Positions 1,478 to 4,939 of a stretch of 14,819 nt of DNA are shown here, one piece after another. Numbering within the stretch: the stretch's first letter is position 1; the number at the start of each line of letters is the position of its first letter. Location of the stretch: assembly GCA_022360105.1 (NCBI GenBank), contig JAKSDL010000822.1, forward strand, positions 1-14,819, in the 5' to 3' direction. The stretch comes from Pseudomonadota bacterium (GTDB taxonomy: Bacteria; SAR324; XYD2-FULL-50-16; JAHJRI01). The notes under the pieces are model-generated. The model was not told the DNA's origin. It made no database searches and saw nothing but the letters and a program-made list of their open reading frames with translations. Both the position numbers and the translations under genes were made by a program.

Positions 1478-1866
1478 ATCATAAACTCCGCTACTGATAC
1501 AAATTTACTGTGTACAAGCAAATGTTAATCCATGGATCAAAATAGAACCGGACTGCAAGCTCAGGGCACCCCGGTATAGTCATTGAAAAAACAATCAAGC
1601 TTTTTGAAAAATCTACCTTCAAATACCAGACCATCTTACAGGCCAAACAATCCGGTGATCCCCAATCCGGAATATCCAATCGTGCCTATGATGTAACCAA
1701 CTGAAATATAAACAAAAGTGATCGTGTTCTGGTTGAATGATGAACTCATTATGACACCAAACGAAAAAAACGGAAACTTGACAGCCAATCCAGGGTAACG
1801 TTACATTTAAATTAGGTAACGCTAGATTTAGTTCACAATATTCGCAACTAACTTCAAAAAGGCAAT
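1478..1866. other. Divergent intergenic region between the FmdB-like gene and the PAS-sigma54 activator
   Basis: No gene is supported. An open frame without a start codon runs through 1546-1704 and could be a remnant. CAATCCGG occurs twice, 17 bp apart (about 1647 and 1664). The right end holds a candidate promoter and two operator-like GTAACG sites, listed separately. Confidence 0.55.
1778..1824 (+). promoter_or_regulatory. Promoter with two operator-like sites before the activator gene
   Basis: TTGACA at 1778-1783 matches the sigma-70 -35 consensus; TACATT at 1802-1807, 18 bp on, could be the -10. The perfect palindrome GTAACGTTAC (1795-1804) overlaps the -10, and TTAGGTAACGCTA (1812-1824) lies just downstream. 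Both share GGTAACG[T/C]TA, with their starts 21 bp apart, two helical turns. A 16-bp sequence, 1809-1824, recurs exactly in inverted orientation before the HesB-like gene at 3321-3336. The arrangement suggests a dimeric regulator controlling this gene. Which regulator binds is unknown. Confidence 0.55.
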
Positions 1867-3276
1867 ATGGCAACGTTTAGTGATATCAATCTCGATGAAA
1901 ATTTTATCAATTTGATCCTGGATTCCATGGCAGGAGGTGTATTTGCGCTGAACGAACAGGGAAAGATCAGTCTCTGGAATCATTCAATGGAAAAGATCTC
2001 GGGTTATAAAGCGGAAGATGTTTTGGGAAAAGGTTGTGACTTGCTTAATTTCGACCTTTGAGTAGGTAAACAATATCCCCATAGTTTTGGGGACTGTGGA
2101 ATTTTTCAACGAGGGTCAGTAGATGGAGTGGAATGCCATCTCAAACACAAAGACGGCTACAGCGTGCCGGTATTAAAGAATGCACGTTTAATGAAAAACA
2201 GTGAAGGAAAAGCTGTTGGTGTTGTTGAAACAGTCACCGATCTTACCGAATTGGACAAAACCAAGAAGCAGGTTGAAGAGATCGGACGAAAACTTGGTGA
2301 AGTCCATCACCTGGACAGGATCATCGGGAAAAGTCACATCATGCAGCAGGTGTTTCAGGCTGTCAAAGCTGCTGCTGCCAGTGAAGCTACCATCCTTATT
2401 CAGGGCGAAAGCGGCACCGGAAAAGAGCTGGTTGCCGGGGCCATCCATTTCAACAGCAACAGGGTTACAAAACCCCTGGTCACTGTTAATTGCAGCGCAC
2501 TTTCCGAATCGTTGCTGGAAAGCGAGTTGTTCGGTCATGTAAAAGGAGCCTACACAGGTGCCATCAAAGATAGAAAAGGACGATTCGAAGAGGCAGACGG
2601 GGGCACCATATTTTTGGATGAAATTGGTGAGATCAGTCCGTATATACAGGTTAAGCTGCTGAGAGTCCTGCAGGAAAAAGAAGTGGAACGGGTAGGTGAG
2701 TCAAAGCGTCGCAAGGTGGATATCCGAATTATCACCGCAACCAACAAGAATCTCTACGACTTGATCCGAAAAGGAACCTTTAGGGAAGATTTATACTACC
2801 GGCTTAAAGTATTCCCGATTTCCGTGCCTTCCCTTAGGGAAAGGAAGGAAGACATCCCCCTCCTGGCTGCGCATTTTATCAAACAACAGAATGGCAAAAC
2901 AGGTAAAAATATCAAAGGATTCACCAAAGCAGCCACCCAGATATTAATGGATTATGACTGGCAAGGTAACGTTCGCGAACTTGAGAATGCGGTAGAGCAT
3001 GCTTTTGTGTTATGCAATTCTGAAGAGATAGATACGTTCGATCTGCCGGTTGAGATAAGAAAAACTCATTTTATGCCTCCTGCGCCATTTCAAATGACGC
3101 CTCCAAGAAGTCATTCTCAACCGGGACGAACATTGACCCAGGAAACGTTACTTGAGTTACTTCATGACAGTGATTGGAACAAGGCAGAGGTGGCAAGACG
3201 ACTTGGTGTTAGTCGAACAGCTGTATGGAAGTATATGAAAAAATGGAACATTTCATTGCAGAAACCATTTGAATGA
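1867..3276 (+). CDS. PAS-domain sigma-54-dependent activator, probable selenoprotein (Sec in PAS domain)
   Basis: This is a 469-residue NtrC-type activator if the TGA at 2059-2061 is read as selenocysteine (residue 65). Residues about 10-130 are a PAS sensor domain ([22 protein letters not shown]) with a Cys-rich insert holding Cys57, Sec65, Cys77 and Cys90, followed by [18 protein letters not shown] and the PAS-ending [11 protein letters not shown]. The AAA+ domain follows: Walker A GESGTGKE (180-187), GAYTGA sigma-54 contact loop (227-232), Walker [12 protein letters not shown] (245-255), and an arginine-finger region FREDLYYRL (305-313). A Fis-type helix-turn-helix (about 433-459, [18 protein letters not shown]) ends it. 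It lacks a receiver domain, so the signal enters through PAS. The frame, PAS homology and spacing continue without shift across the UGA, and in related activators this insert carries Cys residues. A SECIS-like hairpin follows. Without Sec only a 64-residue fragment would form, or an internal GTG start at 2128 would remove most of the PAS domain. It lies upstream of the HesB-like selenoprotein and may control it. Confidence 0.85.
2076..2093 (+). promoter_or_regulatory. Putative SECIS of the PAS-sigma54 activator gene
   Basis: TCCCC (2076-2080) pairs with GGGGA (2089-2093). A2081 and T2088 can extend the stem to 6 bp, leaving loop TAGTTT, 21-26 bases after the UGA. This is inside the usual window for bacterial SECIS loops. 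The loop has a G, but as its third base; it would be second only if a U-U mismatch closes the loop. The match is good but less ideal than for the FmdB-like and HesB-like genes. Confidence 0.55.
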
Positions 3277-3281
3277 TGATT

Positions 3282-3297
3282 TGGTATACCCTCTGCA
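3282..3297 (+). promoter_or_regulatory. Sigma-54 (-24/-12) promoter candidate for the HesB-like gene
   Basis: TGGTATACCCTCTGCA keeps the GG and GC doublets exactly 10 bases apart, and agrees with TGGCAYR-N4-TTGCW except for one base in each half. It would start transcripts near 3308, about 57 bases before the HesB-like ATG. It begins six bases after the stop of a sigma-54 activator gene, which makes control of hesB by that activator plausible. The inverted operator at 3321-3336 lies downstream of it, which is unusual for an enhancer site. Confidence 0.5.
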
Positions 3298-3320: not shown

Positions 3321-3336
3321 TAGCGTTACCTAATTT
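3321..3336 (-). promoter_or_regulatory. Inverted copy of the activator-gene operator, before hesB-like gene
   Basis: TAGCGTTACCTAATTT is the exact 16-bp reverse complement of 1809-1824 in front of the activator gene. Nothing else in the two non-coding regions is alike over this length, so a shared protein-binding site is the simplest reading. It lies 29 bp before the HesB-like start codon. Confidence 0.55.
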
Positions 3337-3364: not shown

Positions 3365-3658
3365 ATGGCTAATATACAAGTAACGGATAAAGCCAGCAAA
3401 GAATTGCTGACGGTTTTAAAGCAACATGAAAAAAAGATGATTCGCCTTTATATACAAGGTATTGGTTGAGGCGGGCCAAGATTAGGACTAGCTCTGGATG
3501 AGCTAAACGAGCAGGATGAAACCATAACAGCCAACGGGATTGAGATTATTTTTAACAGCAACGAAAAGGACTACTACGATCACAGCATCATCGATTTTGA
3601 AGATTCATTTCTGGGAAGTGGATTTGTCGTCCGCTCGATGTTGCCCGGCAGTTGCTAA
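3365..3658 (+). CDS. HesB-like (IscA/HesB fold) selenoprotein
   Basis: This 97-residue protein reads through TGA at 3467-3469 as selenocysteine 35. Frame and homology run unbroken on both sides: an IscA/HesB-type start (MANIQVTDKASKELLTVL), then YIQGIG-U-GGPRLGLALDE, then NGIEIIFN and a C-terminus ending GSC with Cys97. HesB-like proteins with Sec at this place are a known bacterial selenoprotein family, and the position corresponds to the first cluster-ligand Cys of IscA. The family is related to Fe-S cluster carriers, but this branch lacks the usual C-terminal CxC, so a redox or alternative metal role is possible. If UGA stopped translation only 34 residues would be made. A perfect SECIS-like stem follows. 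The ribosome site is weak (AAAGAAAAA). The gene follows the Sec-containing activator, and a sigma-54 promoter and an operator copy lie between them. Confidence 0.92.
3489..3505 (+). promoter_or_regulatory. SECIS element of the HesB-like gene
   Basis: TAGCTC-TGGAT-GAGCTA forms a perfect 6-bp stem with a five-base loop. The loop lies 26-30 bases after the UGA and has G as its second base. This fits the general bacterial SECIS pattern (short upper stem, G among the first two loop bases, loop roughly 16-37 bases after UGA). It lies inside the coding sequence over the codons for LALDEL. Confidence 0.78.
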
Positions 3659-3835: not shown

Positions 3836-3994
3836 ATGGAAATATTACAATTATTGCTTTTTATAGTCATCTGGTTTGTCGTTCAAAAATGGTTGTTACC
3901 AAAATTGGGAATCCCCACTTGACTATCGCCGAATGGATGCCGCGTGCCGGATACCCAGGACAAGACGACAGATGAAAAAGAAAAAAACGACTAA
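3836..3994 (+). CDS. Small single-helix membrane protein, candidate selenoprotein
   Basis: This 52-residue protein exists only if TGA at 3920-3922 is read as selenocysteine 29. Residues 1-21 are a hydrophobic helix (MEILQLLLFIVIWFVVQKWLL), probably one membrane span. Then comes PKLGIPT-U-LSPNGC, with Sec29 six residues before Cys35, and a strongly charged Lys/Asp/Glu tail. The sharp change from helix to redox-looking motif to soluble tail is what a real small protein would show and is not expected from chance readthrough. It ends 12 bases before trxB, whose Shine-Dalgarno overlaps its stop, so the two are probably co-transcribed and TrxB or thioredoxin could reduce the Sec/Cys pair. Weak points: no clear ribosome site before the ATG, and only imperfect pairing for a SECIS (around 3935-3948, loop with G second). 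With UGA as stop only 28 residues would be made. Confidence 0.6.
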
Positions 3995-4006
3995 GGACAT
4001 AAATTT

Positions 4007-4939
4007 ATGGATGCAGCACACAAAAAGATCATTATTTTAGGCTCCGGACCGGCGGGATATACTGCTGCCATTTATGCTGCAAGAGCCAATTTAAAACCAA
4101 TGATTTTAACTGGTTTCCAAAAGGGTGGTCAGTTAACTACCACCACCGACATTGAAAATTTTCCGGGGTTTCCGGAAGGTATTGATGGAAACCTGTTGAT
4201 GAGTCAAATGGAACAACAAGCTGCCAGATTCGAAACTGAAATAGAATTTGGAGAAGTATCACAAGTAGATGTTTCGGAAAAACCAATCAAGGTCTACACT
4301 ACCGACAAGCTTTTTACGACAGATGCCCTGGTTATCGCCACAGGTGCCTCGGCACGTTATTTGGGGATAGAAAGCGAAACCAGGTTCAAAGGCCGGGGCG
4401 TGTCCGCCTGTGCCACCTGTGACGGTTTCTTTTATAAAGGCAAAAAAGTAGCCGTGATCGGAGGAGGGGATACCGCTTTGGAAGAGGCTTCCTACCTGGC
4501 TAATTTTTGTGAAAAAGTCTTTGTGGTTCATCGTCGCGACGAATTTCGTGGCAGCAAAGCCATGCAGAACAGAGTTCTCAAAAACGAAAAGATCGAAATT
4601 GTCTGGGATTCGGTTGTAGAAGAAGTTGTCGGTGACGATAGCGGCATGACCGATTTAAAAGTAAATAATGTCAAAACAGGTGAATCAAGGCTGTTAGGAA
4701 CAGAAGGCATGTTTGTTGCGATTGGGCACACGCCGAACACCAGTTTGTTTGATGGTATCTTGGAAATGGATGACAAAAACTATTTAATAACTCAACAGGG
4801 CACCACAAAAACCAATGTTGAGGGTGTTTTTGCCTGTGGTGATGTGACAGACAGCGTATACAGACAGGCTATTACCGCTGCAGGTACAGGTTGCATGGCT
4901 GCCATGGATGCCGAACGGTGGTTGGCGGAACAGGAATGA
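4007..4939 (+). CDS. trxB: Thioredoxin reductase (NADPH, FAD)
   Basis: This is a typical low-molecular-weight thioredoxin reductase of 310 residues. It carries electrons from NADPH through FAD and a disulfide to thioredoxin in the cytoplasm. Residues 12-17 give the FAD loop GSGPAG. The redox-active CATC is at 135-138, followed by DG. The NADPH domain has IGGGDTALEE (151-160) and HRR (175-177). The C-terminal FAD motif is GVFACGDV (273-280). The active site uses ordinary Cys, not Sec. The start has AAGGA at 3993-3997, nine bases before ATG. It lies directly after a candidate small membrane selenoprotein and near other Sec genes, so it may supply reducing power to them. It ends with TGA used as a real stop, facing a strong terminator hairpin. 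Confidence 0.96.
   Translation: MDAAHKKIIILGSGPAGYTAAIYAARANLKPMILTGFQKGGQLTTTTDIENFPGFPEGIDGNLLMSQMEQQAARFETEIEFGEVSQVDVSEKPIKVYTTDKLFTTDALVIATGASARYLGIESETRFKGRGVSACATCDGFFYKGKKVAVIGGGDTALEEASYLANFCEKVFVVHRRDEFRGSKAMQNRVLKNEKIEIVWDSVVEEVVGDDSGMTDLKVNNVKTGESRLLGTEGMFVAIGHTPNTSLFDGILEMDDKNYLITQQGTTKTNVEGVFACGDVTDSVYRQAITAAGTGCMAAMDAERWLAEQE

Follow-up and report, generated by a model that had tools for sequence, protein, structure and literature searches.

The activators NifA, PrdR, NorR and ZraR, whose NCBIfam models score highest against the protein described here, have in common with it a PAS domain, an AAA+ domain with the GESGTGKE and GAYTGA motifs and a Fis-type helix-turn-helix (HTH) domain. 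Every score lies under the cut-off of the respective model (NifA 384 of 529, PrdR 372 of 795, NorR 356 of 476 and ZraR 346 of 760; the PrdR model NF041552 gives 371.6 bits against 795) and the protein is therefore none of the four, from which it is further set apart by a predicted selenocysteine (Sec) in its PAS domain. A different likeness, known here from sequence alone, is to the Fe-S PAS sensors of the NreB type, which also combine several cysteines in one PAS domain with a transcriptional output; these are histidine kinases and are not known to contain Sec. The selenoproteins tabulated in two catalogues from 2022 and 2026 are mostly redox enzymes, carriers and transporters (PMC9312934, PMC13188914), and neither table includes a PAS protein or a sigma-54 activator, while a histidine kinase is among the putative selenoproteins named in a further report (PMC8318568). 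A literature search covering titles and the beginnings of abstracts likewise recovered no Sec-containing activator; most subscription journals lie outside its coverage, and this leaves absence unproven.

The locus was recovered in a stretch of DNA of 14,819 nucleotides (hereafter the window). The gene at 1867-3276 on the forward strand forms a single frame of 469 residues if its sole internal TGA (2059-2061, codon 65) is read as one residue, and it terminates with a TGA at 3274-3276. Domain analysis of the read-through product with Pfam recovered PAS (residues 14-55), PAS_9 (25-128), Sigma54_activat (152-318; PF00158, 240.9 bits), the AAA lid (324-401) and HTH_8 (428-460; PF02954, 28.3 bits with a cut-off of 22), and both of the above AAA+ motifs are conserved. 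The first-pass annotation had proposed that one complete activator spans the TGA, with Cys57, Cys77 and Cys90 surrounding a Sec at residue 65. The frame is indeed unbroken except at 2059-2061 and carries the full set of domains, and the three cysteines are present at these positions, where they lie with residue 65 in a loop of the PAS domain that is rich in Cys. A sequence search of the PDB returned AAA+ matches and weak matches to phytochrome PAS domains, and the 50 matches listed by a fold search are sigma-54 activator chains, with nothing on the PAS loop. A tRNA scan of the window found none, and an Rfam scan gave zero matches up to an E-value of 5. A gene for sigma-54 itself (rpoN) is present in all six of the relatives' genomes searched.

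The decoding of the TGA was examined by comparison of its column across homologs. Among the best 80 of 213 genome loci the column is readable in 50 (the other 30 lack it), and is occupied by a Cys codon in 48 and by TGA in two, L001 and L002, the former being the nearest relative in this set with 94% identity to the window activator. Of 120 listed database proteins (7998 were scored) 111 cover the column. The first residue of the other nine corresponds to residue 66 or a later one, and P0003 among these nine is recorded as a product of the window. The earlier annotation had named homologs without Cys at this column as an observation that would speak against Sec; the outcome (Cys in 48 of 48 non-TGA loci and in 111 of 111 database proteins) favors Sec. 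In the nearest family, i.e. the 10 genomes of the family to which G001 and G002 belong, a full-length ortholog with exactly one internal stop, a TGA, was found in five genomes, and in all five it lies at codon 65. These orthologs, which include L001 and L002, are 65-94% identical to the window activator. The alignment also includes twelve further members of the activator family from these genomes; their codon at this position is TGC or TGT, with L104 being poorly aligned. A search of the phylum at 1e-140 gave matches in 6 of 52 genomes, namely the five with TGA and G003, which has Cys. A phylogenetic tree places the six TGA genes in one clade (support 98/95) together with three database entries that are truncated and with P0002, a Cys form, and as P0002 (78% identical) is nested in this clade (support 97/88), Sec and Cys were exchanged inside it. 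A search of 395 Desulfobacterota genomes (with at most four candidates scored per genome) gave 14 matches in 13 genomes and no TGA-type activator among them, the codon itself being read in 5 of the 14; the single TGA recorded in this search, in G293, was rejected as an internal TGA, as it is the ordinary stop of that gene.

A TGA is one base away from the Cys codons TGC and TGT, and gene callers report the downstream part only, as in the nine listed database proteins mentioned above. Both facts are what one would expect if the TGA stemmed from a simple nonsense mutation or a mistake in assembly, or marked the decay of a Cys gene. This reading is nevertheless highly improbable: the presence of TGA at the identical codon in five other genomes, at identities down to 65%, contradicts sequencing error as well as gene decay, and the retention of TGA in five other assemblies makes a local sequencing error in particular very unlikely. 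Moreover, comparison with the closest ortholog, that of G001, yields dN/dS values of 0.029 for codons 1-64 (dS 1.17) and 0.022 for codons 66-469 (dS 1.48). The recurrence of the TGA in five genomes, at a codon that is otherwise Cys and is flanked on both sides by regions under purifying selection, is thus more than chance, and the Sec proposed for residue 65 is upheld by these same observations.

A second alternative takes the UGA for a true stop, with two products arising from the gene, a PAS fragment of 64 residues and an AAA+/HTH activator that lacks PAS and is restarted at the GTG at 2128. Such a GTG-started reading frame exists and short forms of this kind are present in the databases. 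The segment between the TGA and this GTG (codons 66-87) would be untranslated under a restart, yet relative to the closest ortholog it shows nine synonymous and no non-synonymous codon changes, and it also harbors the hairpin described below. This argues against decay as well, and leaves two separate products an improbable explanation. The beginning of this segment is itself unusually unchanged at the level of codons: codons 65-76 differ from those of G001 in a single codon, a value as low as this being reached in only 5 of 458 windows of the gene (mean 5.3). Finally, in-frame TGAs in several genes of the window could be taken to mean that the organism generally reads TGA as an amino acid. Such a different genetic code has a negligible probability and was rejected, given that the activator (3274-3276) and trxB (4937-4939) both end at the usual place with TGA, and that relatives possess the dedicated Sec machinery: tRNA-Sec is above cut-off in all 10 genomes of the nearest family, selA in 9 of the 10 (it is missing in G004, an assembly of 3.3 Mb) and selB in both of the relatives' genomes searched. 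Taken together, these comparisons make it close to certain, in our assessment, that 1867-3276 encodes a sigma-54-dependent activator with Sec inserted at the UGA of codon 65.

Folding of the region downstream of the TGA, which had been suggested earlier as a check, recovered a SECIS-like hairpin of 6 bp at 2076-2093 (forward strand), 20 nt after the TGA, with the loop UAGUUU. The hairpin departs from the published bacterial SECIS model, which places a G within the first two positions of the loop (PMC13188914): here the G is third. In all six TGA genes, as against none of 54 Cys genes, a hairpin with five or more base pairs and an early GU in its loop is seen 20-21 nt downstream of the TGA (one of the 54 passes if GU is not demanded), these limits having been chosen after viewing the TGA genes, which are themselves related to one another. 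The published rule, as coded, is passed by 4 of the 6 TGA genes, but also somewhere by 10 of the 54 Cys genes, and was rejected as an unspecific discriminator. With the same hairpin the genes of G006, G002 and G004 pass it, that of G005 falls short by 0.1 kcal/mol and that of G001 fails; the window activator passes only with a different hairpin, which is absent in G001.

The activator is embedded in a setting of selenium-related genes, with three neighbors that contain an in-frame TGA (an fmdB-like gene, a hesB-like gene and a gene for a 52-residue membrane protein) ahead of trxB. The hesB-like gene (3365-3658, forward strand; TGA at 3467-3469) encodes a protein with a Pfam PF01521 domain above cut-off. 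In the known HesB-like selenoproteins (TIGR01911, NF038090) the motif is given as UxGP (PMC13188914); the window protein would have its Sec at the same place (GxGUGGPR), but scores below both NCBIfam cut-offs (47.7 of 66.35 and 62.7 of 85, respectively). The TGA recurs in five other copies read, from G001, G005, G006, L102 and a second contig of G002. The gene at 4007-4939 (forward strand) encodes a thioredoxin-disulfide reductase, TrxB (TIGR01292, 407.6 bits with a cut-off of 343.45), and trxB lies downstream of the TGA-type activator in all six loci. In four of these (the window, G001, G005 and G006) hesB and the small gene are situated between the two, and in G002 and G004 trxB directly follows the activator. 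On the other side of the activator, and on the reverse strand, is an FmdB-family zinc ribbon gene (1262-1477; TIGR02605, 57.5 bits with a cut-off of 31.3), in which a TGA at 1274-1276 is followed by three codons and TAG (CSPGG-TGA-AIG-stop). An FmdB-family predicted selenoprotein is listed in the 2022 and 2026 catalogues (PMC9312934, PMC13188914), and shares with it the zinc ribbon and an in-frame TGA; it has a UxxU motif, whereas the window TGA is three codons before the end. FmdB proteins in which the end contains a TGA are also encoded in G001 (AUAIG; here the first 18 residues are unmatched in the TGA-containing frame), G005 (GUGIR), G003 (GUGI) and G002 (GUGF), and fmdB adjoins the activator in 3 of the 6 TGA loci. 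The window TGA is a candidate for a C-terminal Sec, but may also be an ordinary stop.

The third of these neighbors (3836-3994, forward strand; TGA at 3920-3922) is a candidate for an unannotated selenoprotein family delineated by comparative analysis. Its 52-residue product has one hydrophobic stretch followed by the signature LP..GI.TU (LPKxGI[SP]TU in the window copy and in L131-L170). A later Cys is conserved in all 16 aligned sequences and is absent from the G001 copy, which is outside the alignment. A model built from this alignment had 13 matches, with one TGA each, in 12 of 15 chosen genomes, and it also matched 142 of 395 sampled Desulfobacterota genomes, with at least one TGA in every match listed there. 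No matching Pfam or NCBIfam family was found, a search of a protein database gave zero candidates, and the family does not appear in the 2022 and 2026 catalogues (PMC9312934, PMC13188914). Among 53 distinct sequences, for whose selection the pattern itself included the TGA, a hairpin located 16 nt after the TGA has all five pairs in 35 and is not seen, even by looser limits, in 7, one of which is the window copy. At two of its pairs both sides have changed, one being UA in 32 and CG in 14 sequences, and the other CG in 41 and UA in 4. The protein possibly represents a new and common selenoprotein family, and this may be as important as the activator itself; that so many genomes encode it while neither Pfam nor NCBIfam has a model for it suggests that selenoproteins of wide distribution continue to be missed.

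Several features of the intergenic DNA bear on the potential targets of the activator. Upstream of its gene, a palindrome GTAACGTTAC (1795-1804), proposed by comparison of conserved sites to be the activator binding site, is overlapped by a sigma-70-like promoter read by eye (TTGACA-17-TTACAT, 1778-1806, forward strand), and is followed by a second, imperfect site, GGTAACGCTA (1815-1824). Between the activator and the hesB-like gene a strict pattern search detected a sigma-54-type promoter, TGGTATACCCTCTGCA (3282-3297, forward strand), with another imperfect site, TAGCGTTACC (3321-3330), located 3' to it. Sites of the GTAACGTTAC type occur upstream of the activator in the window, G001, G004, G005 and G006 and also in G003; none was found on the activator contig of G002, where 265 bp of upstream sequence are available. 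By the strict pattern, 4 of the 6 TGA loci have a sigma-54-type site ahead of the next gene (0.006 expected by shuffling), and the other two have one by a relaxed pattern that also matches unrelated places. The upstream palindromes of the window are at an unusual distance, ~1.45 kb, from the sigma-54-type promoter, and one imperfect site is downstream of that promoter. A search of four genomes for a double-site pattern of the window type returned nothing beyond the known sites of G005 and G006. On the second contig of G002 two TAACGTTA sites (5192 and 5224) are succeeded by a relaxed sigma-54-type site (5523) and hesB (5590), the order expected of an enhancer, a promoter and a target. The set of genes in question (G002:C346; L171, 4487-6517) consists of fmdB, the two TAACGTTA sites, the sigma-54-type site, hesB with its TGA, trxA and the small selenoprotein gene. 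No activator gene was found beside it, and it is likely to be a member of the regulon in trans.

Comparable sites are associated with an orthologous Cys-type family from Desulfobacterota, annotated as PAS or HydG-like regulators and 57-68% identical to the window activator, of which 48 loci (those with a Cys codon among the best 80 of 213) were analyzed. This family shares with the window activator its Cys pattern and the upstream palindrome, whose core TAACGTTA is present within 750 bp upstream of 28 of these 48 activators. It is the commonest palindromic 8-mer in this position (28 loci, with the next at 11), with 35 sites in 36,480 bp of upstream sequence as against 10 in 422,292 bp of other sequence from these loci. 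The palindrome and the sigma-54-type promoters together suggest a regulon. The Cys-type family differs in having Cys in place of Sec and a thioredoxin gene beside it in place of trxB: 29 of the 48 loci from the best 80 of 213 contain a gene of the thioredoxin family, which in 27 of them is divergently oriented within 800 bp. Thus, genes of the thioredoxin system accompany both forms of the activator. The 48 loci from this best-80 set also encode a RACo-like protein (16), a disulfide reductase with a rhodanese domain (12) and an SBF permease with Usp (12), and at least 17 of them have the small membrane protein gene; the thioredoxin, RACo-like, reductase and permease assignments are based on Pfam analysis of one representative each. 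In the 27 divergent pairs a strict sigma-54-type site is directed away from thioredoxin in 12 (0.06 expected) and towards it in one, and in L024 such a site immediately precedes the small selenoprotein gene. From these directions of the sites, the side of the small selenoprotein and the activator is the better-supported target in the Cys-type loci, rather than thioredoxin. In G003 (L124 and L094), a Cys-type activator is accompanied by an fmdB gene with TGA and two TAACGTTA sites, and L094 additionally contains the small selenoprotein gene.

These contextual observations provide clues regarding the potential mode of action of the activator. Judging from the conserved sites, it probably binds GTAACGTTAC-type sites and would act with sigma-54 RNA polymerase at the promoter at 3282 to induce trxB together with the genes of the HesB-like protein and the small membrane selenoprotein; it may also tune its own sigma-70-like promoter. 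The conserved sites and the gene order make this binding and the activation of the three genes probable, and the more general reading, which joins Sec decoding to the action of a sigma-54 activator on the neighboring operon, is likely to be correct. What is sensed is a more tentative matter. Based on the chemistry of the residues and the thioredoxin-system neighbors, the Sec/Cys cluster might respond to the thiol redox state, or else to metals or metalloids that react with thiols, a proposal that we hold with somewhat less than even confidence. There is also a reasonable, if lesser, chance that the decoding is as proposed here and the cluster is instead a set of ligands for a metal or an Fe-S center, rather than a thiol redox switch. 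The four or five conserved Cys/Sec residues in a single loop, the adjoining HesB-like gene (of the Fe-S biogenesis type) and, among the 48 Cys-type loci (best 80 of 213), the RACo-like genes of 16 and the SBF permease genes of 12 are consistent with such a ligand set, whereas the commonest partner being thioredoxin or thioredoxin reductase points to thiol chemistry. Furthermore, 4 of the 6 TGA genes have Tyr in place of Cys at residue 70 and hence an incomplete Cys cluster, which is again less expected of a ligand set. The structure model of the activator (mean pLDDT 66.7) is unreliable over the PAS loop, residues 66-80 being below 50, and for this reason does not decide the sensor chemistry.

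As the activator needs Sec and several of its presumed targets are selenoproteins, selenium supply would limit the whole set, and we suggest tentatively that it limits both activator and targets. A mixture of read-through and stop at UGA65 is possible as part of such gating by selenium, and by ending translation at residue 64 under shortage the gene itself may serve as a selenium sensor, as the first-pass annotation had suggested. It is also conceivable, though doubtful, that the protein is a coincidence detector, which is completed only with selenium, reads redox state or metals through its PAS loop and switches on genes for selenoproteins, the widespread small membrane family included, and for the thioredoxin system. 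If true, a shortage of selenium would shut down the regulon through the activator itself. A Sec in the sensor of an activator would link the supply of selenium to thiol chemistry and transcriptional control within one protein. The natural Sec and Cys orthologs, together with the proposed DNA site, render the activator directly testable. Two further observations concern genes in the vicinity of those considered above. In two loci from Desulfobacterota (L161 and L167) FmdB-like frames ending in FSU are situated shortly upstream of the small selenoprotein gene. In the window, the segment 6811-10155 encodes Rrf2, MetA-like, MetY and ArsR-like proteins, and this gene order is kept in G005 and G006.
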